NCBI GenBank assembly: GCA_002049455.2
Contig: KV918917.1
Location: forward strand, 24,014 to 88,013
Reading direction: 5' to 3'
Length of the DNA: 64,000 nt
Origin: Porphyra umbilicalis
Taxonomy: Eukaryota; Rhodophyta; Bangiophyceae; Bangiales; Bangiaceae
Shown here: piece after piece, positions 41,408-57,216 of the stretch
How the letters are laid out: the number at the start of each line of letters is the position of its first letter
How positions within the stretch are numbered: position 1 is the stretch's first letter
The notes under the pieces: generated by a model
What the model saw: the letters and a program-made list of their open reading frames with translations, nothing else
What the model was told of the DNA's origin: nothing
The model's database searches: none
Made by a program: the position numbers and the translations under genes

Positions 41408-43048
41408 TCAACCCATCGGCATTGCATGGCCACCGCCCACGGCGGCGCCCTTCCCCCCCTTCCCCCCACCCCCTGGGCCCATGGAGATCCAACCCGCCCC
41501 CGCAATGTAGTCGTACAGTTTGTTGACCTTGGTTGCGTCCAGTCGCACCAGCAGCTTGGCGTCCTTCTTACGAACATGGCCGACTCGCGCCGCTTCCCGC
41601 ACCAGCACCTCCTTGACGAGCAAGTACTGGTGCGGGGATACCTTAACGGCCATAACCAGGTCCAGCTCGGCACGAGACAGCAGCTCCGCACCAGCCATCA
41701 ACCGAACGTCCAGGGGCGGCGCTTGTGCCCGCGCCTTGCCACCACCACCACCGTTGTTGTCACCGCTACCAGCCCCGCTGGGAGTACCATCGGAACCACT
41801 ACCGACAGAGCCATTGGCAGCCCCGCCAGCAAAGGCGGCAGCGGCTCGCGCGGCTGACATCGCGGCGAAGGCGGCCCCGCCCTTTTTACCACGTCGCCCC
41901 GGCAATGCTGTCGGCACCGGCGCCAGCGCCGCAGCCGTCGCCGCGGCCGCGTCAGCGTCGGCCTTGAGAGAAGCCGCTGACGGCGACAGCACTGCCGTCG
42001 GCAATGCGGCCGTCACGCGGTGGGCGTCCTCGAGCGTGGACGCGCCGATCGCACGGGCGTAGCGGAGTTTGTCAATCTTGAGCCGCAGCGCACGGTCCTC
42101 CGCTAGGTCGGCGAGCAGCCGACGGTGCTCCCCGTCCGTGTGAAAGCGCAAGAACGGGCGCAGTCGGTGGGACAAGTCCCGCTCCTCCCGTGGCCGCTTC
42201 TTGTCCGCGGCGGCGGCGGCCTTGAAGTCGAGCAAGTTGCGACTGACCACAAACTCTTTGCGGAAAGAGCGCTCATCCAGCTTGGATGAGTAGACTTCAA
42301 GAACACGCAACTTGAGTTCGGCCTCCTCGGGGGTGTCCTCGTGCAGCAGCTCCATGTCGGCGATAATCTCCTCAGCGTCCTGGTCCCACTCGTACGTGAA
42401 GTCTCCGCGTAGAGGCATCCAGCCACACGCCTCTTCTACCTGGTGCAAGTGCATGACGCGAAGGCATTTGGCGTCCACGTCCGCGTCCGCCCCGTCTTGC
42501 TCGGTCGGCGGAGCCACGGGCAGGACGCGAGTAATGTCAGGCAGCGGCGCGTTGGGCGCTTGCAGGCAAGTGGTACGGAAGTGCGCTTCCGCTTCGGCCG
42601 AGTTCTTGGTACGAACCACCTTGGCCACCTCCTCCCAGTTGCCCACGCCGTAGAGCTCCAGACCTTCCAACAAGCGCTCCTCCTCGTCAGCACCCCATCC
42701 CTCCGCATAGACGGGCGTAGAGACCACCTCAATCAGCCTGTACGCGTGGTTGGGCCGGTGCGGCCACAGCGTCGCCCCCACCGAGAAGCAGTCTAAACAC
42801 AAATCATAGTCGGGGCACTCCGCGCAGCGAGCGCGGATGGCAGCGCTCAAGTCACGCTTGCAGTAGTTGCAGTGAAAGCGCGCCAGCGTCTCCGTGTCGT
42901 CCTTGGACCGGGGCTTGTCCGACTTCGCACGTGCCCGCTTGGGCCGCACGCCCCCCCCGCTGGCGCCAGTGCCGCCGCCGCTGGCGCCATCGGCAGGAGC
43001 GGGGGAAACCTCATTAAAACTGCCAGCATCATGGCGAGACCCGTCCAT
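41408..43048 (-). CDS. ADA2: transcriptional adaptor ADA2 (SAGA-type complexes)
   Basis: Adaptor subunit that links the GCN5 histone acetyltransferase to its complex in the nucleus. 546 residues from ATG 43048 (MDGSRHDAGSFNEV) to TGA 41408-41410, no intron. After a basic segment (PKRARAKSDKPRSK) comes the ZZ zinc finger at about 57-103 (CNYCKRDLSAA, CAECPDYDLCLDCF), then a SANT/Myb domain at about 117-162 (WGADEEERLLEGLELYGVGN, WEEVAKVV). The ADA2 core follows with RGDFTYEWDQDAEEIIADME and VLEVYSSKLDERSFRKEFV. A low-complexity Ala/Gly/Ser linker separates this from the C-terminal SWIRM domain, about 460-535 (LLSRAELDLVMAVKVSPHQY, KLLVRLDATKVNKLYDYIA). Domain order and length are normal for the family. 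Confidence 0.96.
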   Translation of the reverse strand: MDGSRHDAGSFNEVSPAPADGASGGGTGASGGGVRPKRARAKSDKPRSKDDTETLARFHCNYCKRDLSAAIRARCAECPDYDLCLDCFSVGATLWPHRPNHAYRLIEVVSTPVYAEGWGADEEERLLEGLELYGVGNWEEVAKVVRTKNSAEAEAHFRTTCLQAPNAPLPDITRVLPVAPPTEQDGADADVDAKCLRVMHLHQVEEACGWMPLRGDFTYEWDQDAEEIIADMELLHEDTPEEAELKLRVLEVYSSKLDERSFRKEFVVSRNLLDFKAAAAADKKRPREERDLSHRLRPFLRFHTDGEHRRLLADLAEDRALRLKIDKLRYARAIGASTLEDAHRVTAALPTAVLSPSAASLKADADAAAATAAALAPVPTALPGRRGKKGGAAFAAMSAARAAAAFAGGAANGSVGSGSDGTPSGAGSGDNNGGGGGKARAQAPPLDVRLMAGAELLSRAELDLVMAVKVSPHQYLLVKEVLVREAARVGHVRKKDAKLLVRLDATKVNKLYDYIAGAGWISMGPGGGGKGGKGAAVGGGHAMPMG

Positions 43049-43557
43049 TGACAGAGGGCGGTGGGGAAGTGGGTGGTGAAAGGCAGCAACCAACGGCGAG
43101 ACCGCGCGAAAGAACAGGGCACAGCTGTGCAGAGACAAACGGTGCGCGACAGTGCGGAACCGCACATCAGGAGGAAGACATAATTGTCGGCTTGGGCAAC
43201 GAAATCCGAAACTCGTCCGGTCCCACAGAAGTATGGTAGTAAGTCGCAGAGTTAGCTGACACTATTCACGGACAACAGTTTTCTTTGCACAAATAGCCTA
43301 CATTTCTGGCACCCATTTTTCGCTCTTCACCCGTTTCGCAATGGATTGCAGTTTTCACCCAATTCAATCAACCCATCCAGTTTTTCCCAAAAACCGGTCG
43401 ACTACCCCTGGCGACAGCCACTCCGTCACGCCATTCTTCTGCGGCCACTCGTCCAGCAACCGCAAGCTACACTTGATTTCCTCGAACAACTTGATGCTCG
43501 TCTTGTCTGTGAGACCAGTAGTCACCTCTGGAAGAGGTGAGGAGCGAAGCTCCCAAT
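43049..43557. other. gap between ADA2 and the Fanzor stop; orphan short frame
   Basis: The right half (43364-43561, minus) contains an open frame whose translation has a protein-like character (KTSIKLFEEIKCSLRLLDEW, then GVTEWLSPGVVDRFLGKTGW). It has no ATG and would need a splice or frameshift to be expressed. It could be the last exon or relic of a host gene next to the Fanzor insertion. The left part, which contains the ADA2 promoter, is ordinary intergenic DNA. No inverted repeat marking an element end was found by eye. Confidence 0.35.
43522..43553 (-). ncRNA. two adjacent hairpins just after the Fanzor stop; candidate guide-RNA scaffold
   Basis: Starting 4 nt after the Fanzor stop codon (43558-43560) are two perfect stem-loops in a row. 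GGAGC/GCTCC pairs around a 3-nt loop (43541-43553), and TCACCTC/GAGGTGA pairs around a 5-nt loop (43522-43540). In TnpB and Fanzor systems the guide (omega) RNA is transcribed from the 3' end of the nuclease gene and beyond, so this is where a scaffold would be expected. The assignment is inference; the hairpins could also serve in transcription termination or RNA processing. Confidence 0.3.
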
Positions 43558-46500
43558 TCACACCCCTGGCGCGGGGCTGGCAGCAGCCATCTGGCCGACG
43601 TTACTCGTCGCCAGGTCACCGCTTGCCGACGCAGCAGCTGCGTCGTGCGCCCCGTCTGCCACCACACCCAGTGCCTCTACCCGCACCGTTGGCGCCGCCA
43701 CTGGCACGGCCGTGGGGGCCGTCCCCGCCTCTGCGACCGGCGCGTCGGCGACGACAGGTCGGCGCCAGGGCTCCCACGACGTGGGTGAACACCGCGTCCA
43801 CCCGTAGCCGGCCTCGTAGGTACCCGCGTCGATCGCAGCCGCGTGCCGCACCTCCTGTACAGGGTCTTCCTGGGGTGGCGCGCGTGACACGGTGTACCCC
43901 CGGATGTGGGGGTAGATGCTCCGACCCTGCATGCTCTTGATGGCAATCTTGGACATGTTGCGCGCCGCGTTGGTGTCTCGCCCGACGTACGAAGCCGGGC
44001 AGGCGACGTTGGTACACAGCTTGACCCCCCACAGCGCCAGCGGGTCGGTCCCAAACGCCCACTTGCCGTGAGCCGCAATCGCCTGCAGCACCTTTGTCCG
44101 CACCGCCTCTGCGTGCTCCTTGGCGCGCTGGGCAGCGGCACCGTCGCGTGGACCCGACCGACTGCCGGTCGTCACACCCCGTCGCGCGCGCCGGCCGCCG
44201 CGGAGGGGCGAGGCGCGCTTGGCCGCCGACGCCGACGCGCGATGTGCGTAACTGCTTGCCGCCTTGAGGGGCGTCAGGTCGACCGGCGAGTCGGGCGACA
44301 CGTACGTGTTGCACAATCCGTGGCCGCACTCTGCACACGTCAGGCTCGTATTGTGCTCGTCCACGTACACGAGGTGCACGTGCTTGGCCATGCGCCGCAC
44401 GAGGTCGACGCTGCCGGCGCGCGGCCGACACCGCCCAATCGCCAAAACCGCCTTGGTACCGTCCACCGTGCGCCGTAGCAAACCGCCCGTCAAGCGGCGC
44501 GCCAGCACCGCCGCGTACCGGTTGCACTGGATGAGGGCGTGTAGCCGCGCCTTGCGTTGACCGTACGTCGCGGCCGCCCCGTACGCCGCCTGATAGGCGT
44601 CTGTGTAGGTGCGCGCAATGCGCACAGTGGCCGCCACCACCCACGCGCCCCACGTCGTGACCTTGAGGGAGCACCCGGCCGTCAGTGACTCGCGCGACAC
44701 GCCTGGGTGTGCCGCCGCCCACACCGCCACCGCTGCCGCCTCGGCGCGCCTCGTCATACCGGCGCCCGTCGCCTCGCGGTACGCGCCTTTGGAGACGACC
44801 AGCGTCGCACCAGTGGGCGGGACGCGCACGCGCCGGCGCCCCCCGGCGGCGGCCGCACGTTTGAGTGCGGCACACAACACGCGCAAGCGGCCGGCCGACA
44901 GCAGCGACGTGCCGGGCGCGCCGAGCTGCTGGGGCGCAGCGGGTGCAGCAGCGGCCGCCGCAGCCGCCACTCGCTCTGCCGTGCGCAATGCCGCCGCCGT
45001 CTGGCGCTTGTCCTGCGCCGCGCGCTGCACGACGCACGCGGCGTGTGCCCCACTGTCGACCGACACTGCACGCCATGCCGCCTCTGCGTGCGCCGCCGCT
45101 TCTGTCTTAGCCTTGACAGCCGCCGTCGCGTGCGCCGCCTCTTTGAACAGGGCCGCCTCGCCCACCCACACACACACGTGGTTGGACAGGTGCCACGGTT
45201 GGACGTTGCCGCCATTGATCGTGGCGTGCGCGGTGGCGCGCATGCGCGTGAGGATGGCCCGGCGGCGGCCGGGGGCGCTCGTCCCCCGCTTGCGGGCCAC
45301 CTCTTGCCGTTGAATCGGGGTCAGGCACTCGTCGCCAAAGGCCGGCTGCTTGTACCGCCGGCTCTTGGGGGGGGGGGGTCCACCGCGTCTGTCGGCACCG
45401 TCGGTGCGTGCTCCAAAGGCGGCAAAGACGCTTGTGCCGCGGGCGTGGCCGCCGGCGGGCCCACTAGATCTGTACGAGTCCGCTTTGGGGGAGATCCCGC
45501 CGCCCCGGTCGACGCGCCGAGCGCGCCACGGCCGCGCTTTTTGGTCGTCTGGCTCACCGCGTCACCGCCGCCGACGGGAAGGCCCGCCACGGTGGCCTTG
45601 GCCGCGCGCGCAACGTCAGCCAACTTGGCGTGTAGCGCGTCGACGGTCGGCAAAACCCGACCACCCCACCGCACGAGGCACTCGGCGGCGGCGGTCGCGG
45701 CCATGGCTGCCCGCGCGAGCGCGTCGCCCGCAATCCGCAGCGCCCGGTACGCCCGATACGCGTGCAGGTGCGGCGCAGGTGACTGAACAAACGGCACCGC
45801 CCCGGGGCAGTAGGCAGCGACAATCGACGCGACGCCCGGGTCCCACCCAACAAACGCCAGCTCCTTGACGACGTCGGGCGAAAACGCCATGCGGTCCAGC
45901 TGCGTCCGCACGCTCGCCGTCTCGGTGGCCCCCCCCCCCCCCCACGACCGTCACTTGCAGCCTTACGACGCGCCCGCCGAGCGGCCGCCGTCGACGCGGC
46001 GGTGGCGGGGTGCCGTATCGTAAAGTGCACGCCGACACCGTCCGACACGATGGAGGGCCCGACCACCGTCTTGGCGCCGACAATGCGCGCGCGGCGGAGC
46101 AGCGTTTGAATGAACAGCCCGTCGGTTGTCGGCGCTGGCAGCGACACCCCGGCGGACGCCAGGCGCCGGCGGAGCAGCGCGCCGCCGACGCGCGCGTACG
46201 CGGTGCACGTGGCGGCTCGGCCGGGTGACGTGTCGGTCGCCTCGATGCCGGCACGGATGCACAACAGCTGGGCATAGTGGAGGAGCGGGTAAATGTGCAG
46301 CGGCCGCTGTCGCAGGGCCGACGTGTCGAGCTGGAGGAGACAGCGCCGCCGACCGTCACCACCGGCGTAGACTAGCACAGTGTCGTACGCCAGCGTGGCC
46401 CCGGCCGCCATGGCAGCCCCATCCGCAACAGACACTTTGCCCGCCGGCCACTTGAACGAAGGCGGTAGCGTGCCGTCGGCGGCTTGCAGCCCGGCAACGA

Positions 46501-48391
46501 GGGCCGAAATCAGTGCCGCGCGGCGCTGTCCGTCGAGACCGCCGGGGGCCTGCGGGTAGACGTCGTGAACGATGCACTTGGCAATGGTCTTGACCGCCGA
46601 CGTCACGTGCGTCACATAGTGGTTTTCAAAAGCCGTCGCCACGGTGGCCCAACCAGACGTGTCGCCCGGACTCGGCAGCAGCGTGCTGCACGGCAACTGG
46701 CTTTGCTCGGTCACCGCGTCTGCCACCGCCGCCGACGCCGCCACAAAGGCAGAGTAGTCGCCGTCGCCTTGGGCGGCGGCCTTGATGTCCCCGCGGGGCT
46801 TGACGCGTGCGCCTCTACCCGAGCAATCGACGCACGCCCGCCGGGGGGCGCCGCCAAACGCACCGACGCCGCGACAAGAGAAGGTCGAAGCGACCTGCTT
46901 CCAGGCAAGCCCGTGGTTGCTTGTCAGCGACGCCGGCACGGCCGCGATAAACTCGTCGAGCGTGCGCCGGCGGTGGCCGCCGCCACCGCCGCCATCGCCG
47001 CCCGCACCCTGCCCGCCGCCACCACCATCGACGCGCTCGAGCAGGTACCGCATCGTGCCGTCCATGACAATGGACACGAGCCGCAGATGCTTTGTCTGTG
47101 CCGTGGCCAACTCGGTCAGCGCGGCCGCCCCCGCGGCAGCGTTTGCGACAGCGGCGGCGGTCCCCGTCGGCGCGCGTCGGCTCGACGTCGTAGGCGGGCG
47201 CCCCGTCGGGGGCAAAGCGTTTGCCGGCCGCCCTGGCGCCAGCCGTCGTCGGACACCAAAAAACCGGTCGACCGACACGGAAACGGTCGTCGTCACCTCC
47301 CCCGTCATGCGGTGCTGGTCGACGCACCCCAAGTCGCGCCCGCGGTCTGCATTGTGGCCCGACCAGCCGTGGGCGACGGCTCGCAGCGGACACACAGCGC
47401 TGGCCCGGGTGTGACCACGCGCGTGGCACGCACTGCACTTGTTGTTTCCGCTGCCGGCCTTGGCGCCCTTGGTCGCCTTGGCCGCCTCGCCACGCGCCGC
47501 GTGCGCCGCCTGGGTGGCAGCGTCAGCCGGACACGTTTTCACATTGTGCTCCGTCGCCCCGCAGCCGCCGCATCGACGCTGGCGGCCACGCGTGCCGCCG
47601 CCGCCGCGCGCCGTGGCGCCAGCGTCGCCACCATTGCCGTCGCCATCGTCGTCGCCTGCGTGGTCCCCCGCGTCGGGCTGCACCATGGGGATCAGGCCCT
47701 TGACCGCCGACAAGACGCTGCCCGCCGCGTGACGCGCTCGCGCGCAGAGGCGCCTGCACGCCACCCGGACGGAGGCGTCGGCTCTTGTGTCGGCATTGGC
47801 GGGGGGTGCCGCGGCGCCCTCGTCACCGTCGTTTGGTGCGGGTGGCCGGGGCGGCGGCACCGTCACCGCAGCGACGGCTTGCAGCACGGCAGTAGAGGCC
47901 GACGTGGCGTCGTCCATCGCCGCCGACGCGGGCGACCCAGTGCCCTGCGCGTGCACCGGCTTTGATGCGAGGAGCTTGGACAGGAGGGCACTCGCGGCAA
48001 GCAAGCTCGCCACCGGCCCCGCATCACCGGCCGCCGCACACGCGGCGACGGCTGCGGCAACCTCCACCGTCGCCGACCGCACGGCATACGCCGCACTCTG
48101 CCGCGTGCTGTCGAGGGGGCCACCCGCCTTGATTGCCGCGTCCTCGCCGGCCGTACCGAGGCGCGTGACCTCGTCGTCGTCGTCGTGGTCTACCCCCACC
48201 GGCCCAGCCACACCCCCGCCATTGTCGCCATTGTCGATGCCGCTCGCCGTCGCCTCGCAGGGCGGCGCTGTCGCCAAACTGGTCGTCGTCGTGGGGCGCC
48301 GCGTCGTGGGACAGTGGCCGCTGCGACGCGCCCGAAGCGCTGTCGACGTGCCGGGCGCCTCCTCCTCGTCGGTCGACGACTGGTCGTCCAT
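43558..48391 (-). CDS. Fanzor (eukaryotic TnpB-like RNA-guided nuclease), two frame breaks in C runs
   Basis: One locus of about 1,610 codons read in three frames: ATG 48391 (MDDQSSTDEEE) to the C run 45929-45943, then to the G run 45367-45378, then to TGA 43558-43560. The N-terminus is acidic and disordered, followed by two zinc knuckles (CGGCGATEHNVKTC and CSACHARGHTRASAVC). A conserved-looking core follows (ENHYVTHVTSAVKTIAKCIV; VGPSIVSDGVGVHFTIR). Nuclease signatures: RuvC-I FVGWDPGVASIVAAY (Asp codon near 45842), VYVDEHNTSLTCAECGHGL (Asp-Glu near 44361-44356) with the first zinc-ribbon pair, second pair KLCTNVAC, and RuvC-III GRDTNAARNMSKIA (Asp near 43977). This order is the TnpB/Fanzor hallmark; Fanzors are RNA-guided DNA endonucleases found in eukaryotic transposons. 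No DDE or other transposase sits beside it. The basic insert KKRGRG may aid nuclear entry. The catalytic residues all appear present, so the protein may be functional if the homopolymer breaks are assembly errors. Confidence 0.85.
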
Positions 48392-48683
48392 GGCGGGGGA
48401 CGAGCGCACACGGGCGGGGGAGGGCTTGACGTCCTCAAGGCGGTGGCGCGCCCTTGCCGCCCGCTGGGGGTGCCGGCGCGGGGCGGCACGGCGGCCAGGC
48501 CTGTGGGCGCATGGTTGTGCACGGCGCCAGCACCCATCACACCTTTTATAGGAAACGGCACGGGTAGCGGTGGCTGGCTTGCCGCGGACCGCCAAACGAC
48601 ACGGGCGGGACTAGACCACCCTGCGAGACGGTCTAGGAGCTGGTTGCGGGCCGGCCGAGCGCACGAAACAAACACACCCTCGC

Positions 48684-48819
48684 GTGCAGGCACTCCCGCC
48701 GCGCTCTCCTCCTTTCTCGGCTCCACGCGCCACGCCGCGGCCGGCTCGTGCGTGCAGGCACTCCCGCCGCGCTCTCCTCCTTTCTCGGCTCCACGCGCCA
48801 CGCCGCCGCCGGCTCTTGC
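48684..48819. repeat. 68-bp tandem duplication upstream of the Fanzor gene
   Basis: Two near-identical head-to-tail copies beginning GTGCAGGCACTCCCGCCGCG at 48684 and 48752. They lie about 300 bp upstream of the Fanzor start, in its likely promoter. Confidence 0.9.
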
Positions 48820-49437
48820 AGGTGGGTGTACCCACAGGCCGCCATGCGGGCACCGGCGGCCGTGGGAGAAGCTCGGCGGTGGGCCGGCGGGTCGGCACCC
48901 GATGGGTCGGCACCCGACGGCGAGAGAAGACAATGTACGGACGAACGGGCACCGCGAGTCCCCCTTCCCGCCCCCCCCCCCCCCCCCTCCGCGGGGGTGG
49001 TGTGTGGAAAATTGTGACGTCATACGCGCGGGCGTGTCACGGACAGAAGGGGTGTGGCGCGTTGAACGCCACCGTTGGCCATCATGGAGACGCCTGGACG
49101 ACGTCTTGCCGACCGCTGCGGTGCGGCGGCGTCGCCGCATAGAGCACATGCCCGCCATACAGGTCCCACGGGTCCGACAGATGGGCCCAGCCACAGCGCT
49201 GCGACGACCCCACGCCCATCCCACCGGGGCGTGCGACCACCTTGCCGAAACACCCCCTCCTACCTGGTGTTGAACGCGCCGACATGGATGAAACCCGGTC
49301 GCACGAGTCGTCGTGGCGGTGGGGGTGGTCGGTCGTGTGGGGTGGGAATTTGGACCATCACGGCTGGTGTCAGTCGCCTCGGCGGCGCCGCTGCACTAGA
49401 TACCCCCCACCATACCTGGTGAGGGGGGGGGGGGCGG

Positions 49438-49575
49438 GGACAATGAGGACGATGAGGAACACCAGGACAATGTGGACAATGAGGAAACAGACAATGAGGA
49501 CAATGAGGAAATTGAAGAAAACGGACAAGGAGGACAAGGAGGACAATGGGGACAATGAGGACATTGAGGCATCCG
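49438..49575. repeat. degenerate GACAATGAGG minisatellite
   Basis: An interspersed 6-10 bp motif family (GACAATGAGG, GACAATGTGG, GACAAGGAGG) repeated about fourteen times; purine-rich on the plus strand. Confidence 0.8.
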
Positions 49576-49650
49576 AGAGTACGGGGCGGCCGTCTCTGGG
49601 ACGACCAAACACCGGCATTCGGGCGCTCAGTGGCGGACGGGCCCCACGCC

Positions 49651-49700
49651 GACACCCACCGACACCCACCGACACCCACCGACACCCACCGACACCCACC
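49651..49700. repeat. five exact 10-bp repeats
   Basis: Five perfect consecutive copies of GACACCCACC, which in one frame would encode Thr-Asp/His-Pro-rich sequence; no gene is supported. Confidence 0.95.
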
Positions 49701-49920
49701 AAGACGCGGCGCGCGGCGCGCGTCTCCACCACCACCACCGCCGGGCACGAGTGCGAGAGCGCCGACTCGCGCTCTGGCCAGGCGACACCGTCGCGGTTGC
49801 TGCCGTCGGATCGGTAGTTGCGTCGAGTCGCGCCAATTGAAAATAAGCCGCCCGCGCAGTCTTAAATACAATTTCAAAGTGGTCTACAACCCGCCTCAAG
49901 TTCGGTACCATCGGTCAAAG

Positions 49921-50020
49921 TGTCGATCACTGGGTTAAAGTGTCGGTCACTGGGTTAAAGTGTCGGTCACTGGGTTAAAATGTCGTTCACTGGGTGAAAG
50001 TGTCGATCATCGGGTCGTCT
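49921..50020. repeat. 20-bp tandem repeat array
   Basis: Four clean copies of TGTCGGTCACTGGGTTAAAG (with one or two base changes each) plus a fifth diverged copy, in exact 20-bp register from 49921. Confidence 0.95.
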
Positions 50021-50413
50021 GCAGCGGGGTTATGTCTGGTGGTGGGCGGTCAGTTTGGTGGCGCCTCTGTCGTCTCCGGATCATACGCGTAGTTGTGTAC
50101 CCAAATTGCACTATCAACTCTTGAGACGAGGAGATGCTGCGGTGTGGTTGGTGGTGCGACAAGGCAATGACGACCGGCGCTCCGGCACATGCACGCACTC
50201 TAGCTCGCTGCTCCCCAGCGCCTTCAGCATTCCACTCTGTCCCTCCCCCTGGCCATCCCAAGTCTCCCACCTTGTCCGTTGTGCTTGTACTTCCCCACCT
50301 TTGTGCGCGTTTGTGGATTCCCTGTAGACGCTTACAACACCCGACGCGTTCCGACAGCCGTATAGAAGCCGCTCGTATAATCGTCAGCCTCGGTCTTTCG
50401 GACAAAGGTCCGT

Positions 50414-50675
50414 TGCATTCAAAAAACATCTCGCCTGTGGGGGCAGGCGAGGCGGGTCCCCCCGCCGCCCCCCCGCTCACGCCCCCCCCCGGCGGCGGCG
50501 CCGAGCGCTTCGGCGGTGACGCGTTCCCCCCCGACAACCCCCCCGACACGGCGGGCTCCCCATGGGCGGCCACCACCCGCACGACCTGCCCAAACAGCGC
50601 CGCCTCGTCGAGGTCGTCGAGTGGCGACTCATAATCGCCCTCGTCCTCCTCCGAGTCGTCGTCCCAAAAGCTCGC
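50414..50675 (-). pseudogene. possible relic of an importin-7-type receptor C-terminus
   Basis: A minus-strand frame reads ASFWDDDSEEDEGDYESPLD, then DLDEAALFGQVVRVVAA. This acidic stretch followed by a Tyr-x-Ser-Pro-hydrophobic-Asp box and a short helix is the pattern found near the C-terminus of importin-7/8-type nuclear import receptors and plant SAD2. A Gly/Pro/Ser-rich tail follows, into about 50414. Nothing upstream (50676-52600) resembles the roughly 1,000 residues expected before it, so it looks like an isolated fragment or a terminal exon separated by rearrangement. The assignment rests on a short motif and is tentative. Confidence 0.3.
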
Positions 50676-51002
50676 GGCATTGTGTGGTGCCCCTGTACGG
50701 GAGATTGCTTGATAGGCGTGGATGTGGAGTCTGGAGTGCCGTCTGTCGTTCACTGTATGCATCATTACGCTCCTCCCACCTCTTTACAACTCCGCTTCTG
50801 AACTTCTCCCGCCCGTCACCGCCAGCACAAGCACCTCCTGCACCACCGACATGCCCAAATAAACGAGCGTGTGGCGTTCTCCTCGCACATTTCCCAGTAG
50901 CCATTCCCAGTGTGCCTCGACGCACGCCAGCTTTCCCACCACCGGGGCGGGGTCAAGTGCCGCCGCCGACTATACGAGCTAAAGATCCCCCCATTTCAAT
51001 GT

Positions 51003-51548
51003 GGGCTGTGGCATCGGATAGGACTCGCAAAGGAGCATCGCGTGCATATGCGAAACTCACAGACGTGCCACGCACCGGCCGTTGAGCGACGGCTCGACTT
51101 TATAGACGTGCACTGAAAAAGTGATGCCAAAGAGGGGGTCCTCACGCAACTGCACAAAAACCTAATGGAGGCTGCTCCCATGACCGCTCTGTATCGAGAA
51201 GCGCCGTGAAAAGACCAAACGGCGATGCTTTTTTTCATAACATACGCAACCCCTCCCAGACGCATCAATTTCAATGGTTCGGAGCCTACGAAAAACGCGT
51301 TGGCGACGCTTCAGCTTGTCAAACTGCCTGTTTTGGGCTGTGGCATCGGATAGGACTCGCAAAGGAGCATCGCGTGCATATGCGAAACTCACAGACGTGC
51401 CACGCACCGGCCGTTGAGCGACGGCTCGACTTTATAGACGTGAACTGAAAAAGTGATGCCAAAGAGGGGGTCCTCACGCAACTGTACAAAAACCTAATGG
51501 AGGCTGCTCCCATGACCGCTCTGTATCGAGAAGCGCCGTGAAAAGACC
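51003..51548. repeat. 214-bp direct repeat, 332-bp period
   Basis: 51003-51216 and 51335-51548 are almost identical (a few substitutions over 214 bp). Similarity continues in weaker form for about 60 bp to the right of each copy, so this is a tandem duplication of an approximately 332-bp unit. On the minus strand each copy carries a similar short frame (reading SFHGASRYRAVMGAASIRF), preserved between the copies but without a recognised domain. Confidence 0.95.
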
Positions 51549-51897
51549 TATCCGCGGGGCTATTTTTCGCAACATACACCACCCTCCCAGAAGCATGACA
51601 GTCTATGGTGCGTCTGCCGGTGCCGCCGCACCGCGGCGACCGCCGGTGGTCGCGGCGCGGGGTGACTTCTGGCCGGTGCTCTCGGCGGAAGGTGACCTCT
51701 GCTCGGGCGAGCGAGCGTGCTGCCTCCGCTGCCGCCAGGCGGAGCTTTGACCGCTGCCGCCGCCACCGCGGCCACGGCCGTCACGGGCGCCAACCGGAGT
51801 GCCGCCGCGCGGCCACCGGCAGGCGCCCGCGGCGCGGCGCGATCGCCGTGGGGGGGACGCTGTGGCGTCCTCCCTCCGGCCACCGCCGAACTGCCCA

Positions 51898-52035
51898 CGC
51901 TGTGCGGCGGCGGCGGCTGCGGCGGCGGCTGCGGCGGCTGCGGCGGCGGCGGCGGCTGCGGCGGCGGCTGCGGCGGCTGCGGCGGCTGCGGCGGAGGCGG
52001 CGGCGGCTGCGGCGGCGGCTGCGGCGGCGGCGAGC
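51898..52035. repeat. GGC/TGC triplet array
   Basis: An irregular (GGC)n(TGC) triplet microsatellite of about 140 bp. It gives Ala, Gly/Cys or Arg/Leu runs depending on frame and strand. Open frames across it, such as the minus-strand Ala-rich one, are best explained by the repeat. Confidence 0.9.
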
Positions 52036-52629
52036 GCAGCGGCTGCGGCGGCCGACGCGGCCGACGGGGTCGCGACGGCCGGCGCAGCGCGCCACACCGC
52101 CCCACGCAGTCCCCGACCCCGCGTAGTAGGTTGACTCACAAACAGGATCCGCTGCCGATTCGGTGACACCTCGCGACCGGGGAGCGTCAGCAGCAGAATT
52201 TCGGAAACCACAAATGATGAATTTCTAAAAGACTTACTGGCTCTGACATCACTCGCACGAGGGAAGCGTTGATGTCAATGACCCCGTATTGAGACAAGCG
52301 CACCTATATCTCCCCGGCTATTGCGAGAGGGCGCCACTGGACGGCCAAAATGCAGCCCGGAACGCGCGCCTCTGCGCGCGGCCACGGCTGCCTCACGTCT
52401 GGCGTGCCCAGCGCCGCCACATAGGCCCATTTTCTCCACCTCGCTGCACGTGACACCTTCCGGCCGCCCCGGGCCGCCGCAGCTGACCGTCTCACGGACT
52501 GACTTTGGTGCAGGCCACCGCCCCACTTCCCCTCGTTCACGATTACCGCTCCCACCCCTGCGCTCGCCCACTTCCTTCCGGAACCCCCCTCTCTCTTACT
52601 CTTTCCCCGTCTTGCTCCGCGTGACCACC

Positions 52630-53868
52630 ATGGATGCGGCGGGCGGGGCCCTGCCCGGCGGCGCGGCAGATCCTGCCAGCCAAGACCCTCGGGGTCCCGG
52701 GACAGCGGATGCCCGTGGCGGACGTACCCAACGTCGCGTTGCTTCGACGACCGGGGCGGCCTTTGGGGGGGACGGGCAAGGGCCTCATGCCGGGGGAGAC
52801 CGGGCGGGCGACTCGACGGTTGCGGGGGGGGACGGCGGTGCTGCGGCGCCACCAGCGGACCAAGGTTCCATTCCCGCAAAAAGCTCATCCAACCAATTTT
52901 TTCCCCATGTGACGATCGGCATCATCAAGCGCTGGAAGGACCTGGTGTTTGTGCGCGGGCGCCGCCATGAGCGGCGCGGCGTCGCCAAACGGCTGCAAGC
53001 CAACAACATTGCGGACCACCTGGTGTCCCACGACGCCTGGGTGCAGCGGTTGGACGTGGGAGGGGGCAAGAAGATGGACAAGGCGGCGGTGTCCCGCATC
53101 ATCGCGAAAGCCGTCAAGTTCAACAACGAGGTGAACGCCATACGACTCGCCAACACCGGCGCGGCGCCCGGGGTGGCAAAAAAAGCCGTGAAGGAACACG
53201 TGGCGATCAAGGCCAGAACGTGGCGAATTGGCGCCAAGGACGCGAGGCGCATACTCAAGTACGCAAGTAAGACCTGTCCCGTGGTGGGCGGCGTTATGCG
53301 GAGCCCGCCCCCTTTTGGCGGGTCCCGCCCGAACGACACCCCCGACAAGTCGGGAAGTGACAGCCAATCAGATGGCGACGATGTCGGGGGGGCGGGCGCC
53401 TTGGACACGGAGCCGGACAAGACCCCGTCCGCCAGCGACGAAGGCGACAGCACGTCGCTCGAGTCGTCGGACGACGGCGCGCCGTTCGCCCCCATGCCGA
53501 CAGCCGAGGGGGCGGGGCGGGGGGTGCCAAGCCGGGAGGACGCAGTGGACCTATCGCCTGCATCGGCCACCGGCGTCAACGTGGCCGGGGGAGCTAGTGG
53601 GCGGTCGAGGAGGGCGGCGTTGGCGGAAGCCTCCATGGAGGCGTCCATGCCGGGCGGTGCGGATGTTATGCGCTCGCTTGCCGGCTCGCTGTCCGACGCT
53701 TCGAGGCGTTTCGATGAGAAACAGAAGACGAAGCGCCTCGCTGCGGCCGCAGGGGAGGTTACGAAGAGGGTAGAGTTCCTTACTGCACTCGTCAAGGAGC
53801 ACCCACACGATGAGGGCTTCCGTGACATGCTGCGTGATGCTCTGCGGGGCGGTGAACCGCCCGAGTGA
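52630..53868 (+). CDS. Harbinger-associated second protein (probable DNA-binding accessory protein)
   Basis: 412 residues from ATG 52630 (accATGG; MDAAGGALPGGAADPASQ) to TGA 53866-53868, intronless. The N-terminus is Gly/Asp-rich and disordered. Residues about 100-210 form a basic, helical region (NQFFPHVTIGIIKRWKDLVF, RHERRGVAKRLQANNIADHL, AAVSRIIAKAVKFNNEVNAI, DARRILKYASK). It is followed by an acidic Ser-rich linker and a C-terminal helical segment (RFDEKQKTKRLAAAAGEVTK). In PIF/Harbinger elements the partner gene encodes a Myb/SANT-like protein that binds the transposase and element ends. I cannot see a clear Myb signature here, so that role is inferred from position and from the basic helical core. 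Confidence 0.65.
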   Translation: MDAAGGALPGGAADPASQDPRGPGTADARGGRTQRRVASTTGAAFGGDGQGPHAGGDRAGDSTVAGGDGGAAAPPADQGSIPAKSSSNQFFPHVTIGIIKRWKDLVFVRGRRHERRGVAKRLQANNIADHLVSHDAWVQRLDVGGGKKMDKAAVSRIIAKAVKFNNEVNAIRLANTGAAPGVAKKAVKEHVAIKARTWRIGAKDARRILKYASKTCPVVGGVMRSPPPFGGSRPNDTPDKSGSDSQSDGDDVGGAGALDTEPDKTPSASDEGDSTSLESSDDGAPFAPMPTAEGAGRGVPSREDAVDLSPASATGVNVAGGASGRSRRAALAEASMEASMPGGADVMRSLAGSLSDASRRFDEKQKTKRLAAAAGEVTKRVEFLTALVKEHPHDEGFRDMLRDALRGGEPPE

Positions 53869-53879
53869 CAACGCATTTA

Positions 53880-55157
53880 CTATCTCATGTGCGCACGATA
53901 GATGCCCTTCTCTCTCATAAAAGCACACACGACGTTTTGCACCTGCAGACGCATTGGCAGCGCCCCGGCCTCTGGGTCGTCGATGGCCGAGGGAGAGGGA
54001 TCAGCCAGCGGCTGCCGCGGGAAGTCATCGCCTCGGGCGACACAGACGTTGTGCAAGACACAGCATGCCACGATCCAGTCCATCGCGAAAGAAAAGTGGG
54101 CATCGCTCGCCAGGCCGACCCGCAGCTCCTTGAGACTCCCCCATCGCCCCTTCAAAATGCCGATGGTGTGCTCCGACTTTACCCGCAGCCTTGCCAACTG
54201 GTAGTTATAGTTTTTGTCAGCAGCCGTCTTACACTCAGGACGCTTGAATGGGCCAATCACATGCCGCGTGTAGAGCATACCCTTGTCACCGAGCAGGTAT
54301 TGGCTAGCCGAGAAGAAGATATTTGAGTGCTCACTCCACTCGGCCAGCGTCTGCACAAACGTATCGGGCGCCGCACCCGTACAGCCGACGACGACGTTGG
54401 TGATCGAGCAGTCCCAGTCGCACGTGATCAGGCCGCTCAGGCTGTAACGTGACTTCCGGTCATAGTACGTCCATGGGTGGAGGGCGGGCTGGTAGGCGAG
54501 GGGGAAGGTGGTGCCGTCCGTGGCACCGATGCAGCCCTGGAATCCAAACTTGGAGACCGCGTAGGACGATAGGTGCTCGCGCCGCTGCGCATTTGGCCAC
54601 CGGATGTGCACAGGTGCGAGAGACACGAGGGCCTTGACGACCCTGCGGCTACTTTTTACCACAGCACCTACCGACACCCCAAACAGGTCCGCGACGGCGT
54701 CGACGGAGCACGCGTTGCCGTAATGGCCGAGACGATAGAGGGTGATGGCAAGCTGCAGCTGTAGGTCCACCTGGGCGCCCCCGCGGGAACGGAAAAAAAC
54801 CGAGCGCGCATCCCTGCGGAGCGCCAACAGCACCGCCGCAAATGTCGCGCGGTCAACCCGAAAGTAGCCGCGGAAGCGCTGCTCGGATGAGTGGTAGAAC
54901 GCCGACTTGTACCAGGCGTCGGACTTGGCCACGCCGGCCCCCCCACGAGCCAAGTAACGACGCCCGTGCGTCTTGCGGAACGCATCGTACGACAGCGCCC
55001 AACCCAATTGCAGTCCCATCTTGGCCGTCCGCCCACCACCAGGAAACACGTCTTGCTCCTCCACCCACCCGACGTCGATAGCAGCGAGAAGAATAGTGAA
55101 AAACAATACTCGTTTACGGAGAGTAGCGAGCACGAGCGGGCGTGTTCGGCGCCCCAT
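53880..55157 (-). CDS. PIF/Harbinger transposase (DDE_Tnp_4 family)
   Basis: 425 residues from ATG 55157 (MGRRTRPLVLATLRK) to TGA 53880-53882, intronless and intact. The helical N-terminal part includes FRVDRATFAAVLLAL and a helix-turn-helix-like block LGHYGNACSVDAVADLFGVS, as in PIF transposases. The catalytic core shows GATDGTTFPLAY (Asp about 214), YYDRKSRYSLSGLITCDWD, GAAPDTFVQTLAEW, YLLGDKGMLYT (Asp about 291) and KSEHTIGILKGRWG (Glu about 329). These are the DDE triad contexts of the DDE_Tnp_4 family (related to the host protein HARBI1). A domesticated HARBI1-like gene is the alternative. The adjacent partner gene and repeat-rich setting favour a transposon. Confidence 0.9.
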   Translation of the reverse strand: MGRRTRPLVLATLRKRVLFFTILLAAIDVGWVEEQDVFPGGGRTAKMGLQLGWALSYDAFRKTHGRRYLARGGAGVAKSDAWYKSAFYHSSEQRFRGYFRVDRATFAAVLLALRRDARSVFFRSRGGAQVDLQLQLAITLYRLGHYGNACSVDAVADLFGVSVGAVVKSSRRVVKALVSLAPVHIRWPNAQRREHLSSYAVSKFGFQGCIGATDGTTFPLAYQPALHPWTYYDRKSRYSLSGLITCDWDCSITNVVVGCTGAAPDTFVQTLAEWSEHSNIFFSASQYLLGDKGMLYTRHVIGPFKRPECKTAADKNYNYQLARLRVKSEHTIGILKGRWGSLKELRVGLASDAHFSFAMDWIVACCVLHNVCVARGDDFPRQPLADPSPSAIDDPEAGALPMRLQVQNVVCAFMREKGIYRAHMR

Positions 55158-57216
55158 AATGAGAGTGGTGGTTGGTGGTTGAAAAGTAAACTTTGACCTC
55201 AATAAAACGACCAGCGACCCCGACAGTCGATGACGGACACGATGGGGAAGGCGAGGGGGAGCGGCAACAGCGGGTTGCGGTCCACGTGGATGGGTACCGG
55301 GGGGGGGTGGGGGGCGACGGCCGGTCACCGCCAACGTTGATGGGGAAGGGGGGGGGCCGAGGGCGACGGCCGGTCACCGCCAACGCCAACTTGGTGGGCG
55401 GCCGACGACGGCTCCTTGAAAGACGGTGGGGTCGCCAACGCCAGGGTGCCCGACGGGTTTACACGGTTGACGTACGAGGTGGCGCGGAGGACGGCGCGGC
55501 GCCGACTGCAGCAGCAAAAAAAAAATGGAATGCACGCAGGCGTGACCCAGGCGACGGGAGACGTGAAAAAAAAGGGGGAGGAGGGGAGAGGGGTGAGAAG
55601 GTGGGGGGGAGGGGGGAGGGGGGAGCGAGGACGGGGGAGCAAAGAGGGAGACGAGCAAACATCCGAAAGGAGAAACACATGATTGAGGGGGGAAAGCAGC
55701 GTAGAGCGCCGAAAGAGAAACGAAGAAAAGATGGGTACAGTCCACGATGCGCGTCAGACAATACGCTCGGCGGTGGAGTAGTAAACGGCGGTGGCACTGG
55801 CGATACGGGACGACGCACCACAGCGACCAGCCACTCCCATGCTGTGTCAAAAAAAATCTCCAAGCTTACATCGGGAGGGCCTCCTCCTCCGTTGCCACGG
55901 TGCAGGTGTGGTTGTCGTCGTCGCGTTGGGGGGAAGGCAGCGCGGTCGCCGACGGCGAGGAGAAAAACACACCTTGCCGATCTCGTGCGGCTGCGAGCTG
56001 CGTGACAGAATCGCCAGCGGGGCGGGGAAGTGTGAGTACCCGGGTGGTGGACGGCGGCGATTCTGCGGCGCCGGCAAGTCGAAGCATACTTCAACGTATT
56101 TCCAAAAAAATTAAATTTCATGTGTGGGTGGTGTGGCAGAATCGGCTGCGGGCGTCAGAATCGCCCGCGTTCGTGAAACAGCCTAGTCGCCCAATAGGCG
56201 GCGACGGCGGCGGCGGCGACGGGCAAGCCAGCCCCGCTCGTCATCGTGCGCACGGCCACAGTCGTCGCCGCTGCCGGCCGCCACGCCGCGGAGAATCGCC
56301 GCGCTGGCGGCCACCGGCAACATGTGGGCGGCGGCGGGAGGGGGCGACGCCGCGTCGGCACCCTCTCCACCTGCCGCCACAAAGTCTCCCCTGTCGCGCA
56401 CAGCCGTCTTGGTGCAGCCCGCAACCGAGGCGGGGGGGGGGGCGGGATACGTTGAAAGAAAAGAAAAAGACAGCGGAGGACGTTGTCCTCTGGAAGTGCG
56501 ACCCAACTCCACCTGAATTTCATTCAGGGATAAACCACGAACTACTACGGCGCTGCGAGTTTAGAACTAAGGAGCTAACGCCTAGCCAGGCAAAGCCTGG
56601 AGAACCCAATCCGGAAATTCCGGCAGTGCCCGTACACTGTGTGGCGGTATGAAATTCCCGAGAAAAAGTGAGATCTTTTCTTTCATTATAAATAAGGAGG
56701 AGTTATTTCGATTCGACCGCATCCAACTCTGCCGACTATCCTGCAGAAGATTCCTGAAAATGTGTCGAACAATCGCGAAGATTATCTTCCCAATCCGCTC
56801 GAGTCGTCCTGCAGATCGTATTTGGAACTTACCTGGTCCGATCCGACAATCAGACTTGTCTTGGATGGCGGATGGTCCTGAGATCAGACCAGGAACTGTT
56901 TTCCAGATTGTTTCCAGGACTGTTCCGCAGCGTATCTCGTGTCATGGCCACTGGACCAAACGACAAACAAATCCGTGCGCGCGTTGGACCGACTGGTCTA
57001 GCGTTCGAACAAGATCCGATCTCCATCCTGTACCCGTAGAATGAGTACGCGGACGGGTTCCAGACTGTCTTCAGAGCCAGGCAACAGCCTCGACGAGAGA
57101 TAACAGTGTCGTCACGCGATAAGCGCATACCCAGGATAAGTTCAGAACTACGTCGGTGCCCGACATGACAGACAAAGCACAGGGATAGCTGAGAATAAGT
57201 CCTGCAGATAAAGCAG
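55158..57216. other. intergenic; low-complexity purine tracts, then an AT-richer block with hairpins
   Basis: 55200-55750 carries G/A-rich low-complexity sequence (purine tract about 55555-55710). 55750-56500 is ordinary GC-rich DNA with overlapping non-coding frames. From about 56500 GC falls clearly, with three short perfect or near-perfect palindromes (56512-56623) and a T/A-rich stretch around 56660-56720. A 131-codon frame at 56649-57044 starts with ATG but has no domain and is not called. Part of this may belong to the end of the Harbinger element. Confidence 0.35.
56512..56623. other. three consecutive short palindromes
   Basis: CCTGAAT-TTC-ATTCAGG at 56512-56528, CCAGGC-AAA-GCCTGG at 56586-56600 and CCGGAAATTCCGG at 56611-56623. 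Two have 3-nt loops with perfect arms. Their grouping within 112 bp at a sharp composition change is unusual. They could be element termini, terminator-like hairpins or part of a structured RNA. Confidence 0.6.

Follow-up and report, generated by a model that had tools for sequence, protein, structure and literature searches.

The window analysed here, a stretch of 64,000 nucleotides of Porphyra umbilicalis DNA from an 83.8-Mb assembly of 665 contigs, contains on its minus strand a damaged copy of a multicopy transposable element. Its sequence supports the assignment of the single recognised gene of this element to a very large protein of the Fanzor1 type, a group of RNA-guided nucleases. The copy is broken in frame, carries a deletion near its 3' end, loses its match to full-length copies at the 5' end, and is interrupted by a nested transposon. 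The features of the locus are collected in Table 1.

In the window the Fanzor open reading frame (ORF) is distributed over three overlapping frames, so placed that the RuvC-I acid is encoded in a different frame from the other two catalytic acids. The first of these extends from stop to stop over 45554-48610. The breaks coincide with two homopolymer runs whose lengths differ among copies, and they can be explained by slippage, either real or introduced in sequencing. An earlier note on this DNA had joined the three pieces into one gene split at two homopolymers, and the existence of copies with an intact frame supports this reconstruction. Single stop-to-stop frames containing RuvC-I, the zinc ribbon and RuvC-III were found in L040 (1,660 codons), L041 (1,921 codons) and L042 (1,458 codons). 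Those of L040 and L041 reach the zinc-knuckle region without a break, and L040, read from the ATG equivalent to window position 48391, continues uninterrupted for 1,636 codons. The breaks are not present in all copies: among 34 distinct loci, RuvC-I and RuvC-III share one frame in 9 and occupy two frames in 13, the window included, whereas stops, altered motifs, or a RuvC-I outside the 3-9 kb compared leave the frame status undecided in 12. That the breaks in the window copy are errors of sequencing or assembly, its true frame being uninterrupted, is quite possible, if not quite probable. Both fall in long homopolymers, whose lengths differ by single bases from copy to copy, but this copy is damaged in any case by its nested transposon, by the loss of the 5' match, and by the absence, relative to the other copies compared, of 75 bp (25 codons) directly upstream of the terminal motif.

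Published marks of Fanzor proteins include a DPG motif at RuvC-I and a catalytic Glu six residues before the first CxxC, as given in PMC10711439, together with a zinc ribbon and the RD of RuvC-III, as given in PMC3627910. All four are present here, on the minus strand and at the places where the earlier note had located WDPG, DEHNTSLTCAEC, CTNVAC and GRDTNAARN, in agreement with its identification of a Fanzor. Of the 26 distinct family contexts found by a pattern scan, all have the RuvC-I Asp and 23 the full DPG. The relocated Glu (E-HNTSQT-CAEC) occurs in all 14 of the 15 aligned rows that cover the site, and the four-Cys zinc ribbon followed by RD reads CAEC ... CTNVAC ... GRDTN, the RD being present in 15 of 15 rows. 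The putative catalytic acids to which the note had pointed are thus all three kept in the sequences compared. In the family member P0006 the Asp preceding the Glu is changed and the Glu is retained, which fits the Glu as the catalytic residue; L001 and L034 each lose a zinc-ribbon cysteine. The pattern E-x6-CxxC-x(5,150)-RDxNAA has a single occurrence in the window, at the Fanzor gene, among 100,020 residues translated in six frames (frames of at least 60 residues). Owing to the frame break, the window has no instance of the full pattern including DPG, which the L040 protein does contain; in 20,000 shuffles of the L040 sequence, the full pattern arose once and the looser pattern without DPG twice.

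The earlier note had proposed a profile comparison. PF07282 exceeds its cut-off in other copies, and 17 of 24 aligned members match it at E <= 0.1 (best 6.1e-8), but the window copy stays below the cut-off (22.3 vs 26.3 bits), as does P0001 taken as a whole (18.7 bits). NCBIfam yielded no family for the three window pieces, and PHROGs gave weak transposase-family matches to phrog_506 (E 0.004-0.07) over ~20 residues at the zinc ribbon. P0001 has two zinc knuckles, near residues 274 and 319; their matches to zf-CCHC_6 are weak (E 0.01 and 0.84), the best, found in 4 of 24 members, being 2.6e-4. A TDG motif is described for the WED domain of Fanzor1 in PMC10711439; L040 has TTDG, and L041 and L042 have TADG/TPDG at the equivalent place, as candidates for this motif. 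Some Fanzor1 proteins reach ~800 residues via insertions in REC, RuvC and the zinc finger, according to PMC10711439. The red-algal protein of ~1,636 residues, whose unusual length the note had rightly remarked on, would therefore carry a known trend on to roughly double this size. Because the additional residues lie in a part of the protein that changes fast, we call the protein Fanzor1-type and a variant.

The copies share a common 3' terminus 43 bp past the stop codon, which consists of a double hairpin and ACTACTGG and is followed by unrelated host DNA. The next base is T in 31 of the 32 distinct 3' ends compared, and the positions beyond it show no clear consensus; the terminal bases are CTGG in 30 and CTGA in 2 (that is, CTRR followed by T). 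The 3'-terminus pattern occurs at 64 places in the genome, against none for the reversed pattern, and the 5' terminus, traced in C56 and C38, at 139 places, against 7 for the control. Among the 23 distinct 5' ends viewed, TTA directly precedes GCGAAGC in 20, a T stands at -6 in 21, and T-N-R occupies -6 to -4 in 19; probably the element itself begins with TTA, and T-N-R reflects a target preference. A 9-bp asymmetric inverted repeat is represented near the 5' end by AGCGAAGCT, at a distance of 2 bp if the element begins with TTAGCG, and near the 3' end by AGCTTCGCT, at a distance of 28 bp and directly upstream of the hairpin. This placement matches the definition of Helitron2 by Bao and Jurka (PMC3627910). 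The 3' terminal hairpin of Helitron2 is likewise present (z = -3.58, with 1 of 200 shuffles folding as well). Judged from the end positions of two copies, the full element measures ~12 kb without nested inserts.

No RepHel was found inside the element, and none of the 28 PF14214 matches in the genome lies at a Fanzor locus. Non-autonomous Helitron2 members lack RepHel. Because a RepHel partner was not found, we call the carrier Helitron2-like. We regard as doubtful the alternative that it is an unclassified or IS605-like single-strand element whose likeness to Helitron2 arose by convergence. The CTRR-then-T end, the asymmetric spacing of the repeats and the 3' hairpin all fit Helitron2, and RepHel elements do exist in the genome. 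For this alternative speak the absence of a RepHel with matching ends at the 3 of 28 PF14214 loci examined (9 kb each), the weakness of the predicted 5' hairpin (z = -0.58 and +1.23 for two variants), and the C. merolae Fanzor element CMe-1A, which likewise stands without classification in PMC3627910.

Candidate RepHel carriers were considered and rejected. In L043 (C447:30700-39300) the 8.3-kb stretch between the Fanzor and the terminus is instead a nested insert resembling a non-LTR retrotransposon, recognised by eye from non-LTR-type ORFs in the 3' tail of the Fanzor copy. It is flanked by ~100 bp of repeated element end, and the 8.3-kb spacing recurs in two other copies. L078 and L079 share the 5' 500-900 bp of the element and have no Fanzor match within the 9.8 kb examined of each; the four ORFs tested are not RepHel but host-like (Sec23, SpoU methylase; L078) or have no Pfam match (L079), and L078 adjoins the genes for Sec23 and the SpoU methylase. 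In L054 a Fanzor-less 'ghost' with both termini (reverse strand 1247-2191) adjoins a full element. Its 945 bp cannot be counted as element sequence throughout, as ~742 bp are an unrelated repeat and its own sequence comes to ~200 bp; that repeat recurs at no fewer than 40 other genomic places, 40 of 425 candidates having been scored.

The 580-residue C-terminal frame of the window copy matches at least 83 pieces of its own genome at 48-100% identity. Merged at 3 kb, these give at least 61 loci, of which at least 49 span 1,500 bp or more; 75 of 89 candidates were scored, and the counts are lower bounds. Ten other loci have 96-97% protein identity to this frame over essentially the whole query. 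The number of loci rules out a single host gene, and the lone gene assumed in the earlier note gives way to a repeat family; that first reading had also missed the Helitron-like ends and the damaged state of the window copy. Two protein searches outside the genome, one of which scored the best 7,984 candidates by most shared words, reached seven relatives from jgi and one from ena, all of the same family and 69-89% identical, and no characterised Fanzor.

Comparison of L040 with L041 over 1,625 codons gives dS 0.358, dN 0.127 and a dN/dS ratio of 0.354, and the Fanzor frame is therefore coding and under purifying selection. The ratios for L040 vs L042 (0.421) and L041 vs L042 (0.578) both include poorly aligning ends. 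Around RuvC-I the ratios of L040 vs L041 are low, and dN/dS in the RuvC-I region is among the lowest (0.15-0.19). It is unlikely that the family is extinct, with all copies relics and the intact frames merely not yet decayed: many copies do carry stops, frame breaks or nested insertions, but the ratio of 0.35 separates two subfamilies with intact frames, and the ten copies 96-97% identical to the window C-terminal frame point to rather recent spread. Over codons 1200-1636 of P0001, dS against L041 and L042 falls from ~0.46 to 0.16-0.08 toward the 3' end of the ORF, which suggests recombination between subfamilies or constraint. The last kilobase is strongly conserved between subfamilies, and this conservation may come from recombination.

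Table 1. Features of the Fanzor-carrying element and its surroundings in the window (positions counted from the first base of the window).
Feature	Position	Strand	Basis or remark
Frame 1, N-terminal part of Fanzor ORF	45554..48391	-	ATG at 48391; in frame to G-run at ~45943
Frame 2, RuvC-I segment	45321..45950	-	contains WDPG
Frame 3, RuvC-II, zinc ribbon and RuvC-III	43558..45561	-	stop codon 43558-43560
WDPG (RuvC-I)	45834-45845	-	sequence
DEHNTSLTCAEC, relocated RuvC-II Glu and first zinc-ribbon Cys pair	44326..44361	-	family alignment
CTNVAC, second zinc-ribbon Cys pair	43999-44016	-	family alignment
GRDTNAARN (RuvC-III)	43957-43983	-	family alignment
Zinc knuckle 1, CX2CX4HX4C	47531..47572	-	weak Pfam zf-CCHC matches
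Zinc knuckle 2, CX2CX4HX6C, non-canonical spacing	47390..47437	-	weak Pfam zf-CCHC_6
Fanzor-carrying Helitron2-like element, main part	43515..52127	-	3' terminus at 43515, continuous to 52127; alignment with other copies
Same element, further 5' part beyond nested insertion	56181..56634	-	97-99% identity to L053, L054
Element 3' terminus: 9-bp 3' asymmetric inverted repeat, terminal hairpin, CTGG, then host T	43515..43566	-	
Putative TATA-box-like CTATAAAAGG	48542..48551	-	~150 bp upstream of ATG; sequence only
Tandem repeats inside element, upstream of ORF	51002..51596	-	alignment with other copies
Nested insertion, 4.05 kb	52128..56180	.	absent from L053/L054; short flanking duplication
DDE_Tnp_4 (Harbinger-like) transposase ORF in nested insertion	53883-55373	-	Pfam
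ADA2 transcriptional adapter gene	41411-43165	-	Pfam; neighbour of element

The match of the window copy to full-length copies ends at 56634, by 5' truncation or other rearrangement. Position 52127 was rejected as the 5' end of the element, as other copies run on beyond it. A box resembling CTATAAAAGG also occurs in L041 and L042. The tandem array has a period of ~332 bp and is strongly expanded in the copy at C507:28192-36560. The 3' end of the element lies ~350 bp from the start of the open frame of ADA2, on the same strand. The best organism-named match of ADA2, out of 54 matches, is a Pyropia vietnamensis protein with 77% identity; the other named organisms are mostly red algae, with one fungus. 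A bacterial contaminant is rejected because this flanking gene is red-algal, and the host, judged by its sequence, is a bangialean red alga, in keeping with the origin presumed in the earlier note.

Known systems with which the family can be compared are those of Chlamydomonas, Cyanidioschyzon merolae and Spizellomyces punctatus, in the last of which we take SPu-1-1p to be SpuFz1. The closest precedent for a Fanzor1 on a Helitron2-type element is provided by CRe-1 to -3 of Chlamydomonas, as described in PMC3627910. They share with the Porphyra family a Fanzor1 ORF on a transposase-less Helitron2-type carrier, an algal host, many copies, often truncated on the 5' side but intact at the 3' end, and insertion downstream of a T-rich motif. 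In contrast to their 5-10 exons, the red-algal family has one uninterrupted frame of ~1,636 codons, and it also differs in its target motif, its zinc knuckles, and its long inserts in RuvC and the zinc ribbon. CMe-1A of C. merolae is likewise a red-algal Fanzor1 repeat family (~150 copies) with some intact frames, but it measures ~3 kb, and its target-site duplications and class are given as undetermined in PMC3627910, whereas the Porphyra element has ~12 kb and defined ends. With SpuFz1, in the account of Saito et al. (2023, PMC10432273), the family has in common a multicopy locus, the catalytic D/E/D, and Fanzor-less 'ghost' relatives that keep both ends. SPu-1-1p has 633 residues and lies between terminal inverted repeats (PMC3627910); the predicted red-algal protein is over twice as long. 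A literature search returned no work on a Fanzor in Porphyra or on a Fanzor with a zinc knuckle, and an earlier description of the family may exist elsewhere.

With moderate confidence we interpret the locus as one damaged member of a multicopy family of Helitron2-like transposons that lack a transposase, whose sole recognised gene encodes a very large Fanzor1-type protein and which would be maintained as follows. The sequences show a repeat family with common ends, catalytic motifs, and intact frames under purifying selection; from these we infer a supply of RepHel in trans, a guide RNA, cutting and repair: RepHel made elsewhere in the genome would copy the element by rolling-circle transposition from its 3' hairpin end, and the new copy would insert in front of a T. 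The Fanzor would bind an RNA running from the 3' end of the element into the neighbouring host DNA, the host part serving as guide, and would cut those chromosome copies of the same site that are still without the element; repair from the occupied copy would then spread or keep it. In the Fanzors studied by experiment in PMC10432273, the RNA comes from the element end, its 3' part is the guide, and an adjacent motif lies upstream of the target (CATA for SpuFz1, TTAAN for GtFz1). In the Porphyra element the guide would start with the T after CTGG, and the T-N-R preceding the 5' end would play the part of adjacent motif, which would make the unoccupied site the expected target of cutting.

Several observations, besides the weak 5' hairpin and the PF14214 loci mentioned above, weigh against this interpretation. 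The PF07282 match spans just 22-27 of 60 positions. The gap from RuvC-I to [TS][TS] is ~497 residues in P0001, outside the published spacing D-X(125,275)-[TS][TS], which PMC3627910 gives for the 2013 set; the search pattern of PMC10711439 uses a narrower spacing still. About 103 residues separate the zinc-ribbon Cys pairs, and the second pair is CX4C. One sequence search of PDB gave no match at E <= 10 and a second gave nine unrelated ones at E 0.28-8.4. AlphaFold predictions for 1,181 and 346 residues, made from 24 and 15 sequences, reached mean pLDDT of 30.6 and 32.8, a very low confidence that speaks neither for nor against the RuvC fold which the earlier note had asked to see. A paralogous empty site was sought for one insertion, and none was found. 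As to the RNA, the fold of the last 127 nt is no better than that of shuffles (z = -0.84). The last 100 bp of L001 and L002, the two most divergent copies compared, are just 85-86% identical, no better kept than the remainder of that last kilobase. The low dS at the 3' end was not accepted as proof of a guide RNA, since recombination accounts for it equally well as RNA constraint.

It is unlikely that the protein is a Fanzor-derived factor which has lost its nuclease or guide-RNA function and plays another part in transposition, such as that of a helper binding DNA or RNA through the zinc knuckles, since the retention of all three catalytic acids and the low dN/dS of the RuvC-I region argue against what the huge N-terminal extension with its two knuckles, the altered spacing of RuvC and zinc ribbon, and the zinc-ribbon cysteine lost in some copies (L001, L034) might suggest. 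Returning to the interpretation as a guided Fanzor on a Helitron2-like carrier, a bolder version, which we think improbable as it stands, would make the giant Fanzor the retention engine of a rolling-circle transposon. The T-N-R/T insertion preference would double as adjacent motif and first guide base, and the knuckle-bearing N-terminus would bind nascent RNA or the single-stranded Helitron intermediate. If this were true, each new insertion would automatically supply a guide that targets its own empty site.

Compared with the ~800 residues given in PMC10711439, the family roughly doubles the length of Fanzor1-type proteins. Beside Chlamydomonas, it provides another algal lineage, the second, with a Fanzor on a Helitron2-like element that has defined ends. 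With 64 3' ends and 139 5' ends in one genome, the T-N-R motif, the starting T of the guide and the end of the RNA become predictable and directly testable. The finding bears on why RNA-guided nucleases are kept by transposons that spread by copying and stay at the donor site.

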